DNA from: Nibribacter ruber
Lineage (GTDB): Bacteria > Bacteroidota > Bacteroidia > Cytophagales > Hymenobacteraceae
NCBI RefSeq assembly: GCF_009913235.1
Contig: NZ_CP047897.1
Span: forward strand, 3,099,001 to 3,163,000
Direction of reading: 5' to 3'
DNA: 64,000 bases
The first letter of the stretch is position 1, and each line of letters begins with the position of its first letter. Position numbers and translations under genes: made by a program. Below are positions 23,041-59,704 of the stretch, piece after piece. The notes under the pieces were generated by a model. The model saw nothing but the letters and a program-made list of their open reading frames with translations. It had not been told where the DNA came from and made no database searches.

Positions 23041-23080
23041 GATTCTCCCCTTGAGGGGAGCGCAGAGGGGTGTTTACATA
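23041..23080 (+). repeat. R2 repeat, solo copy
   Basis: GATTCTCCCCTTGAGGGGAG then CGCAGAGGGGTGTTTACATA. It contains the 6-bp stem CTCCCC/GGGGAG with a TTGA tetraloop that defines R2. Confidence 0.9.
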
Positions 23081-37866: not shown

Positions 37867-38274
37867 ATGGTTTCTTCCCTGCCCACCACCATCCTGTTTG
37901 ACGGCGTCTGCAACCTCTGTAACGGATTTGTACAGTTTGTCATCCAGCATGACCCGCACGGGCGGTTTCATTTTGCCGCCCTGCAGTCTGACCTAGGCCA
38001 GCAGATATTGGCTGAGCAGGGCATGGATACCCGTCAGTTTGAGACAGTGTTACTTTTAGAAAACGGAAAGCTGTATCAGAAGTCCACGGCCGCTCTGCGC
38101 ATTGCCCGCCACCTCACCGGAGGGTGGTCCTGGGCGTATGGCTTTATCATTCTGCCTGCCTTTTTGCGGGATTTGGCGTACGGCGTGGTGGCCAGAAACC
38201 GGTACCGGTGGTTTGGTCAGCAAGAAAGTTGTATGCTGCCTACGCCCGCGCTCAAGTCCAGGTTTCTGGCGTAA
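37867..38274 (+). CDS. DCC family thiol-disulfide oxidoreductase (DUF393)
   Basis: 135 aa. Starts TTILFDGVCNLCNGFVQFVI, giving the DxxCxxC motif of the family (Cys15 and Cys18), followed by FHFAALQSDLGQQILAEQG, LLLENGKLYQKSTAALRIAR and a C-terminal RNRYRWFGQQESCMLPTP. A thioredoxin-like redox role is assumed from the family. Probably linked functionally to the HTTM protein on the opposite strand, with which DCC proteins often occur or are fused. Confidence 0.9.
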   Translation: MVSSLPTTILFDGVCNLCNGFVQFVIQHDPHGRFHFAALQSDLGQQILAEQGMDTRQFETVLLLENGKLYQKSTAALRIARHLTGGWSWAYGFIILPAFLRDLAYGVVARNRYRWFGQQESCMLPTPALKSRFLA

Positions 38275-39980: not shown

Positions 39981-40021
39981 CGGATTCTCCCCTTGAGGGG
40001 AGCGCAGAGGGGTGTTTACAT
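39981..40021 (+). repeat. R2 repeat, solo copy
   Basis: CGGATTCTCCCCTTGAGGGG then AGCGCAGAGGGGTGTTTACA, same as the copy at 23041. Confidence 0.92.
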
Positions 40022-43052: not shown

Positions 43053-43175
43053 ACGGAGAATCTTTAATACCTTCTGAAAAAGTGAGGAAACCTGCGTTTT
43101 CTTGCGAAAAAATAATTCTGGCGTACTCTTCTGAGATGTGTGATAGGCCAGTTTTAGGGCAGGATAAAGAACGGG

Positions 43176-43213
43176 CGTTTTTAGGCTGTTTTCTGGAAAA
43201 TAGGGCAAAAACG
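43176..43213. repeat. R1 repeat, copy 19
   Basis: Left CGTTTTTAGGCTGTTTTC, right GAAAATAGGGCAAAAACG. Upstream region of carB. Confidence 0.93.
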
Positions 43214-43259: not shown

Positions 43260-43447
43260 GCTGATTCTCCCCTTGAGGGGAGCGCAGAGGGGTGTTACTA
43301 TTGGTGAGTTAATTGTGCCCCACTTGAGAGCGTACAGCATATAATATAAATAGCTAGTATGTTTTAAGGATTGCCTTTGCGAATATGAATGCTATGACCT
43401 GCAGATGTAAACATCCCTCTGCGCTTCCCCTCAAGGGGAGAATCAGC
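43260..43447. mobile_element. MITE-like element: inverted pair of R2 repeats
   Basis: Left R2 43260-43297 (GCTGATTCTCCCCTTGAGGG and on) faces right R2 43408-43447, whose reverse complement begins GCTGATTCTCCCCTTGAGGG with two differences in the rest. About 110 bp of non-coding DNA lies between. Its architecture matches the DUF559-carrying unit at 59159-59654 but lacks the gene. Confidence 0.65.
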
Positions 43448-43510: not shown

Positions 43511-43544
43511 CGAACGCTTGCGCCATCGGAATTAGGAAAGTACT

Positions 43545-43582
43545 CGTTTTTGGCCTCTTTTCTGGGAAACAAGGCAAAAACG
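43545..43582. repeat. R1 repeat, copy 20
   Basis: Left CGTTTTTGGCCTCTTTTC, right GGAAACAAGGCAAAAACG. It lies 29 bp from the DinG-like stop. Confidence 0.94.
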
Positions 43583-46690: not shown

Positions 46691-46782
46691 TTGTCATCCT
46701 GGTAGGATCTTGATGACTAGTTGTAAGGAGGTTTATTTAAGCACTTGTCTGGTTCGTGTATAAGGTCCTTCCAGGATGACAA
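46691..46782. mobile_element. R3 MITE-like element, diverged copy
   Basis: Left TTGTCATCCTGGTAGGATCT and right complement TTGTCATCCTGGAAGGACCT face each other across about 46 bp. Shorter and more diverged than the copy at 28369. Confidence 0.6.
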
Positions 46783-52442: not shown

Positions 52443-52487
52443 GGAGAATTGCTGGTTGTTGATTGTCGATTGATTTTATCTGTTGGT

Positions 52488-52524
52488 GTAACACCCCTCT
52501 ACGCTCCCCTCAAGGGGAGAATCC
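52488..52524 (-). repeat. R2 repeat, solo copy
   Basis: The reverse complement reads GGATTCTCCCCTTGAGGGGA then GCGTAGAGGGGTGTTAC, one change from consensus. Confidence 0.9.
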
Positions 52525-59070: not shown

Positions 59071-59158
59071 CAGCGTAATAATCAGGAATGCGTGGGAGAC
59101 AGGGCAGTGCCGTTTTAAAAACAACAATGTCTCAATTTTTTATTGTAGCCAACTACCC

Positions 59159-59654
59159 GCAGATTCTCCCCTTGAGGGGAGCGCAGAGGGGTGTCTACAC
59201 AGGAGAGTCACTTTTGTCTTTCTTTGTAATCCTTAATCCAATGATAGATCTCCTGCATCACGTAGGCCATCCTTCTTTTCACGTCTATATTTTCAATTCT
59301 TAGGACGGTCACGCCATAGGATTTCAATTCTTGGTCCCTGTGTGCGTCATAATCCGCCTTGTGGTCGTGGCTATCGGGGTCCACTTCAATAGCCAATCGC
59401 AGTTCGTGGTTGTAAAAATCCACGATGTAATTCAGCATCGGTACTTGTCGGTGGAACTGGTATACCAGCTTCCTGTCTTTGATTTCCTCCCAGAGTAGGA
59501 TTTCTGCCAGCGTGCTGTTTTTGCGCAACTGCCTAGCTTTCTCCTTAAGATCTGGTCGGTAAGGGATTATCCGGTTGAGCATAAATGCCTTTTACGGAAT
59601 GCGTGCCCGCAGGTGTAGACACCCCTCTGCGCTCCCCTCAAGGGGAGAGTCTGC
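59159..59654. mobile_element. Candidate minimal mobile unit: DUF559 gene inside 42-bp inverted R2 repeats
   Basis: Left end 59159-59200 (GCAGATTCTCCCCTTGAGGG and on to GTGTCTACAC) and right end 59613-59654 are inverted copies identical at 41 of 42 positions. They tightly enclose one gene: 7 bp after its stop codon on one side and 30 bp before its start on the other. The flanks CTACCCGC and GCCCGTAG give no unambiguous target duplication. The same ends exist without a gene at 43260-43447. Confidence 0.6.
59208..59582 (-). CDS. DUF559 (Vsr/MTES_1575-like) endonuclease-domain protein
   Basis: 124 aa, single domain with a PD-(D/E)xK-type core related to very-short-patch-repair endonucleases. NSTLAEILLWEEIKDRKLVY begins the family signature. 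The core shows FHRQVPMLNYIVDFYNHELR (first acidic residue in IVDFY), then LAIEVDPDSHDHKADYDAHR with the E-x-D pair; most relatives have EIDG-x-SH, so DPDSH is a small variation. Then LKSYGVTVLRIENIDV. Family roles are little studied; a DNA nicking or cutting activity is inferred. Enclosed by R2 inverted repeats. Confidence 0.88.
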   Translation of the reverse strand: MLNRIIPYRPDLKEKARQLRKNSTLAEILLWEEIKDRKLVYQFHRQVPMLNYIVDFYNHELRLAIEVDPDSHDHKADYDAHRDQELKSYGVTVLRIENIDVKRRMAYVMQEIYHWIKDYKERQK

Positions 59655-59704
59655 CCGTAGTAAGCTCATTGCTTGAGACTTCAGCAAATCAGGTAGAAAT
59701 CTAT

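Follow-up and report, generated by a model that had tools for sequence, protein, structure and literature searches.

A DUF559 nuclease gene between inverted palindromic ends: a probable minimal mobile element with gene-less derivatives

DDE insertion sequences and their MITEs are families with terminal inverted repeats (TIRs) in which an autonomous copy is accompanied by internally deleted copies. REPtrons and TIRtrons (PMC3733652) have the same architecture as the locus analyzed here and carry tyrosine transposases. The DUF559 domain appears in the literature in different settings: Caulobacter VsrA carries a DUF559 domain and, when a methylase is mutated, is responsible for a DNA damage response (PMC12907096), a DUF559 gene is assigned to the EDxHD homing endonuclease family (PMC9403480), and in Legionella, segments that combine a transposase with a DUF559 gene are hot spots of both mutation and recombination (PMC12308824).

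We analyzed a 64,000-nucleotide stretch of the Nibribacter ruber genome (the window), in which a sequence-only reading had pointed to a DUF559 gene enclosed by copies of a repeat, R2. This description of the unit was confirmed: the inverted R2 ends at 59159-59654 are identical at 41 of 42 bases, and the only gene between them is a 124-aa DUF559 gene that lies 7 bp and 30 bp from the ends. The gene-less inverted R2 pair that it had noted in the window is also real, with its halves refined to 43263-43301 (+) and 43406-43444 (-). The three solo R2 copies stood as well, with one start moved from 39981 to 39983 and the copy given as starting at 52488 now placed at 52487-52523 (-). A second gene unit was found in the same genome at 640518-640989 (genome coordinates).

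Table 1 Features of the R2 family in the window (window coordinates).
Feature	Position	Strand	Remark
Whole mobile unit (approximate limits)	59158..59660	.	End of the ~500-bp blocks shared with units of other Rufibacter genomes that lie at unrelated loci
Left R2 end	59159..59200	+	Hairpin CTCCCC-TTGA-GGGGAG, then the AGAGGGGTGT box on the inner side; inner bases of the 3'-side type (ACAGGAGAGT)
DUF559 nuclease gene, 124 aa	59208..59582	-	Pfam PF04480
Right R2 end	59613..59654	-	5'-side inner type (ACCTGCGGGCA)
Gene-less convergent R2 doublet (MITE/REPIN-like)	43263..43444	.	Halves 43263-43301 (+) and 43406-43444 (-)
Solo R2	23041..23078	+	
Solo R2	39983..40020	+	
Solo R2	52487..52523	-	
RAYT-type REP remnant beside the gene unit	59095..59112	+	RAYT gene with such REPs here in G012, G001, G002

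Read from the outside inward, an R2 end begins with about 12 weakly conserved bp (aaacgcagatt), followed by the hairpin CTCCCC-TTGA-GGGGAG, a few variable bases, and a second box, AGAGGGGTGT, which is usually followed by TTACA. In most gene units the two ends are distinguished by their inner 10-15 bp, with a CCTGCnGGTCA-like type located 5' of the gene and a ACAGGAGAGT-like type located 3' of it. The inner ends of the second gene unit of the genome are unlike either type. A single R2 hairpin folded no better than shuffled sequences (z -0.3 to -1.0), and the window doublet, the one doublet that was folded, formed one long hairpin as a single strand (z -9.6). A long R2 variant with about 40 additional bases within the hairpin (L188, L037) was seen at both ends of a doublet in the relative G012 and also beside the L037 gene.

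The 27-bp R2 core, searched with up to 3 mismatches, is present in 56 copies in the one-contig 4.35-Mb genome, compared with 0 for the reversed control; 55 copies entered the alignment. Ten close convergent R2 pairs were found in this genome, 2 with a DUF559 gene and 8 without any gene. Pairs enclosing unrelated genes equally often, which the sequence-only reading had named as counter-evidence, were not seen, with 0 of the 10 holding another gene. Genus-wide pairs were picked by eye, and all their counts are minima: among the pairs listed from 10 Rufibacter genomes, at least 31 are convergent, at least 27 of these being gene-less with a spacing of 108-172 bp, and at least 4 are spaced at 446-469 bp, all with DUF559, as are 2 in the N. 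ruber genome, whose 8 gene-less pairs all fall at 108-172 bp. No gene other than DUF559 was found within the R2 pairs listed from these 10 genomes.

The inner ends of the gene-less doublets were then compared with those of the gene units. By score, 7 of the 8 doublets of the N. ruber genome pair one inner end of each type, clearly so in 6, though some 3'-side reference sequences used for the typing were shortened (that of L036 to 3 bases). One end is clearly of the 3' type in 6 of 8, and 0 doublets have two 3'-type ends. The left inner end of the window doublet resembles the gene unit weakly, and doublet 1868400 matches neither inner-end type pattern, so it does not have one of each. Because their inner ends are of opposite types, as in the gene unit, the R2 doublets are best read, on their sequence, as internal deletion derivatives of it. 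The solo R2 copies showed no significant replication-strand bias of the kind that a lagging-strand mechanism might leave (23 of 37, p 0.19), with the origin set near 2.8 Mb by GC skew from 20 sampled stretches and three 20-kb parts of the window.

Two further palindromes were observed. R3 is a palindrome of about 87 bp, TTGTCATCCTGAAAGGATCTTG..CAAGATCCTTTCAGGATGACAA, located at about 46692-46779 of the window and also at L087. An R3 half abuts the outer side of 8 out of 55 R2 copies and the inner side of 0 out of 55, and one R2 doublet is placed in the middle of an R3. R1, the palindrome CGTTTTTGGCC...GGCCAAAAACG, lies at gene 3' ends (43170-43210 and 43535-43575 in the window, and many more) and looks like a bidirectional terminator. 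An Rfam search of the 64-kb window found 0 families at the gathering threshold.

The 124-aa protein matches PF04480 with 101 bits against a curated cut-off of 20.6 (E 4e-29). Residues E27, D55, E66, D68, and H72 are conserved in an alignment of 20 sequences and kept in the window copy; they form the putative active site. Residue 69 is P in the window copy and G in nearly all aligned relatives. In a profile search the matches were 3hrl, at E 1e-30, and, at E 3.9e-5, the homing endonuclease I-Bth0305I (3r3p). With the predicted model (pLDDT 88), the only Foldseek matches below E 0.001 were 3hrl and 3r3p, the latter at E 1.7e-4 with a TM of 0.68 by target length and 0.56 by query length, and Vsr stood at ranks 14-15. 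Profile and model together assign the nuclease to DUF559 as a PD-(D/E)xK enzyme of the Vsr/EDxHD type. The median dN/dS of 0.093, taken from the 21 pairs out of 78 whose dS is finite, most others being saturated, and with one sequence (L035) N-terminally shortened, indicates that the protein is under purifying selection and kept for function. Only weak matches were found in PADLOC (E 1e-4) and in PHROGs.

To follow the unit among relatives, we analyzed its locus, an interval flanked by an oxidoreductase and a hydrolase gene that converge. In G013 and G015 this intergenic region is short and lacks the unit, G004 and G007 have a RAYT-type REP-like sequence alone, and G012, G001, and G002 have a RAYT gene with its own REPs. 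These RAYT genes match NCBIfam REP_Tyr_transpos with 64, 54, and 50 bits, respectively, all below the cut-off of 80 (E-values 1e-17 to 2e-13), and Pfam gave 0 matches to the G012 RAYT ORF at E 1e-3. The R2 core, allowing 5 mismatches, was absent from the empty stretches of G013, G015, G004, and G007. Two other N. ruber doublets, at 38104 and 2717301, are missing in G012, and no R2 core was found at these sites at the same threshold. The empty sites that the sequence-only reading had proposed looking for therefore exist: in G013 and G015 the window unit and R2 are both absent. As compared between genomes, an intergenic site has either the whole unit or none of it, and where the unit is missing such ends are missing too. 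No target-site duplication was seen, in relatives that are too divergent for base-exact junctions.

The remaining doublets vary in their counterparts. At the sites of doublets 2265566 and 3825335 G012 has different sequence, while 1868400 is common to G012 and N. ruber. At 2607435, G006 has a single hairpin with both outer arms, and at 3382715, G012 has a decayed single hairpin with outer arms. Single palindromes GATTCTCCCCTTGAGGGGAGAATC (L261, L263-L266; L269) likewise consist of one hairpin and both outer arms; exact 24-bp copies were found once each in 5 out of 16 Rufibacter genomes and a variant in a sixth. Such single palindromes could be excision scars or the result of slippage between the 6-bp arms. 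The R2 and RAYT-REP systems share sites: 9 out of 55 R2 copies have a RAYT-REP-like stretch no more than 60 bp away on their inner side (7 close by eye), and 3 out of 55 have one on their outer side.

Within Rufibacter, the genes of clade A (13 genes with proteins at least 56% identical) were observed in 11 out of 16 genomes and sit at 9 loci, based on a comparison of 1.5-kb flanks. Clade A units at different loci have the ~500-bp unit alone in common, and the groups at the same locus are L037/L039/L040, L038/L043, and L044/L050. R2 was also found without a clade A gene in G004, G005, G006, G009, and G012 (2, 8, 24, 6, and 16 exact-pattern copies, respectively). With 5 of the 16 genomes carrying R2 and no clade A gene, R2 number does not track gene presence within the genus. 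One intergenic region holds a clade A or a clade B unit depending on the Rufibacter species, which marks some sites as hot spots. A vertically inherited DUF559 clade (9 loci: L046, L053-L056, L058-L061) had 0 inverted repeats, which indicates that not every DUF559 gene is mobile; this clade is possibly domesticated. At the locus of this clade, the N. ruber genome has an R2 doublet and no gene.

The sequence-only reading had called for a genome- and phylum-wide search of DUF559 genes and had held that other DUF559 genes lacking flanking R2 would count against it. R2 brackets each of the two standalone DUF559 genes of the N. ruber genome, in agreement with the reading, while the vertical Rufibacter clade without repeats goes against it. 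A third match in this genome, a domain of a 1385-aa ORF, is unbracketed. As a comparison, 351 ORFs from 21 sampled stretches (464 kb, including the window) were searched, and 19 had an inverted repeat scoring at least 16 within 150 bp. By eye, 17 of these were caused by R1 (CGTTTTTGGCC), 1 by low-complexity sequence, and 1 by R2, and the sole R2-bracketed ORF was a DUF559 gene.

A DUF559 match was found in 171 out of 296 Bacteroidota genomes. We took the first 60 standalone matches in order from the best-scoring listed part, with an open frame of at most 220 aa, skipping one match at a contig end and leaving out matches that already had a locus; 2 were dropped because a flank was cut by a contig end, so 58 were testable. 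Inverted repeats scoring at least 16 flanked 24 of these 58 genes, compared with 1 of 74 control ORFs from the same loci. At a score of at least 12 the counts were 39 out of 58 and 4 out of 74, and the score was below 12 for 19 of the 58 genes. The bracketing repeats vary in sequence, and by eye most share a plan, a C-run/G-run hairpin adjoining a second G-run, with the G-run usually toward the gene; a few are off-plan (e.g. L146, L154). A pattern for one common version of the repeat was present in 55 out of 296 Bacteroidota genomes, and in 0 when reversed. DUF559 matches below 1e-15 were found in 50 of these 55 genomes and in 76 of the 241 others (Fisher p 1.6e-16, kinship ignored). One Bacteroidota region, G041:C19:203297-206656, has five co-oriented repeats 0.4-1.1 kb apart, perhaps an array.

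We also compared the similarity of the proteins with that of their ends. The set comprised the 46 of 107 tested loci with a repeat scoring at least 16, reduced to 41 by removing orthologous duplicates, and includes standalone matches with earlier loci that are absent from the 58. Over all pairs the correlation was weak (Spearman 0.117), with 37 of 1000 permutations as high. Some pairs with a protein score ratio of at least 0.55 have a common end sequence (L108/L109, L116/L117, L130/L150, L154/L162). The ends of clade B (L045, L051, L052) were not shared in this test, probably because the aligner chose a repeat farther out for L045.

Outside Bacteroidota, the search covered plasmid records, 42 of which had a DUF559 match; 15 loci were taken and 14 tested, with L283, whose DUF559 sits within a long gene, left out of the repeat test. 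Five of the 14 loci were bracketed, with scores of 104 in S. meliloti, 53.5 in D. psychrotolerans, 51.5 in Pseudanabaena, 48.5 in D. proteolyticus, and 30 in D. aetherius. The other 9, including those of E. coli and N. gonorrhoeae, had no clear inverted repeat; among them, Azospirillum and Picosynechococcus scored barely above shuffles. One record, L288 (CP090106.1), is labelled pSymB yet has a chromosome-sized 3.7 Mb and is possibly mislabelled. The hpa operon of Deinococcus offers filled and unfilled sites: the junction of hpaB and an oxidoreductase gene is filled in D. proteolyticus and has a decayed unit in D. wulumuqiensis, and elsewhere in the operon NW-56 is filled at the oxidoreductase/hpaE junction and D. 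aetherius near a VOC gene. The interval from hpaB to the oxidoreductase gene is free of DUF559 genes in D. radiodurans, D. ficus, D. deserti, and D. radiophilus, and no such end was found in the hpa stretch examined of these four. Between paaD and paaZ, D. psychrotolerans is filled and QL22 is empty, with no such end at the empty site.

The master unit, MITE-like derivatives, and solo ends that the sequence-only reading had supposed are supported by the empty sites, the opposite-type ends of the doublets, the lack of any other enclosed gene, and the like arrangement in other genera and phyla. We therefore favor, with a probability of about 0.62 given this comparative evidence, the reading of the feature as an autonomous minimal mobile element consisting of a DUF559 nuclease gene between inverted palindromic ends. 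Mobility of the unit as such appears highly probable, and it would probably be driven by the unit's own Vsr-type nuclease. The presence of a unit would reflect insertion. The nuclease may recognize the hairpin ends in a single-stranded or cruciform state, nick or cut them, and thereby excise and insert the unit, with the doublets moved in trans. It would then do here what the HUH tyrosine transposase does in REPtron/REPIN systems.

A homing process could also give gene-bearing and gene-less pairs, if R2 doublets that had spread otherwise were the target of the nuclease and the gene was copied into cut doublets by repair. The fold is like that of I-Bth0305I, a Vsr-like homing endonuclease (profile E 4e-5; TM 0.68/0.56), and according to PMC9403480 one DUF559 gene belongs to the EDxHD homing endonuclease family. 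However, in relatives the sites of gene-bearing units have no such ends, and the asymmetric ends of the gene unit are kept in the doublets, which fits gene loss better than gain; we consider homing unlikely. That a RAYT, an HUH tyrosine transposase, moves the ends in trans, with DUF559 as a passenger that has gained palindromic ends, seems quite unlikely. RAYT genes with their own REPs do sit at the intergenic site of the window unit in G012, G001, and G002, the REP-like stretches favor the inner side of R2 (9/55 versus 3/55), and TIRYT genes with flanking TIRs sharing GGGGWSAS are on record (PMC3733652). However, the close R2 pairs in the N. ruber genome enclose DUF559 or nothing and never a RAYT, the palindrome of the RAYT differs from R2, and the bracketing of DUF559 is repeated across several phyla.

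The dozens of R2 copies, the doublets with gene-unit inner ends, and the empty sites are hard to reconcile with a Vsr-like nuclease kept by the host for repair or against foreign DNA and flanked by regulatory R2 hairpins through coincidence. The bracketing of 24/58 DUF559 genes versus 1/74 controls and the weakness of the PADLOC match (E 1e-4) point the same way. A host role is suggested by Caulobacter VsrA, whose DUF559 domain and part in the DNA damage response of a methylase mutant are given in PMC12907096, and by the vertical Rufibacter clade without inverted repeats, but as an account of this unit we regard it as very unlikely. Chance or an assembly artefact is refuted by the occurrence of the arrangement in independent assemblies of many species and by the reversed controls of 0. 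The autonomous element remains the preferred reading.

To our knowledge, transposition by a PD-(D/E)xK nuclease alone on hairpin ends is known for no described transposase class. In the open-access literature searched, we found no description of DUF559 with flanking inverted repeats, the papers naming DUF559 gave nothing on such repeats in the titles, abstract openings, and passages covered, and the matches for DUF559 with palindromic repeats were on other topics by title; this kind of element looks so far undescribed. It is an even bet that a cross-phylum class of mobile elements is moved by a Vsr/EDxHD-type PD-(D/E)xK nuclease alone on hairpin ends, convergent with REPIN-RAYT. Such a class possibly stands behind many of the G-rich palindromic repeats seen in Bacteroidota and elsewhere among bacteria. 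If this is true, a second, unrelated nuclease with REPtron architecture would account for orphan palindrome families, a widespread domain of unknown function (DUF559, 171/296 Bacteroidota genomes) would gain a role, and there would be a route from a repair- or homing-type nuclease to a selfish element. A 500-bp element with one protein also makes an object for experimental tests.

Compared with known systems, the unit is like DDE insertion sequences and their MITEs in that its deleted copies keep both ends (7 of 8 doublets, 6 clearly), but it has no DDE transposase and its ends are palindromic. With the EDxHD/Vsr-like homing endonuclease I-Bth0305I (3r3p) it shares the fold and a related core, by profile and structure. 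In contrast to this class, the unit lies between genes, outside any intron, intein, or conserved target gene, and it brings its own inverted ends, which are lacking where it is absent. The same DUF559 domain is found in 3hrl and Caulobacter VsrA. However, no inverted repeats were found at the gonococcal DUF559 locus that was tested, and VsrA is described as a host repair enzyme (PMC12907096). TIRtrons (PMC3733652) have TIRs of which some are repeat families, occur in dimers, and in some cases have GGGGWSAS, but the TIRYT gene encodes a tyrosine transposase. The closest likeness is to REPtron/REPIN-RAYT systems (TnpA-REP, HUH Y1), with a single gene between inverted palindromes, gene-less doublets, solo ends, and doublets of defined size, one of which here folded into a long hairpin. 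The enzyme, however, is a PD-(D/E)xK DUF559 protein and not HUH/tyrosine, it is the only gene in the unit, and the R2 end is a hairpin with a second G-run box. R2 also lacks a GTAG or CGTC tag at its foot: within 15 bp of the foot of 55 copies, GTAG was found outside in 1 and inside in 3, and CGTC in 0 and 2, respectively. In its workings the unit resembles a REPtron, yet it falls outside that class because its enzyme is not of the HUH Y1 kind.
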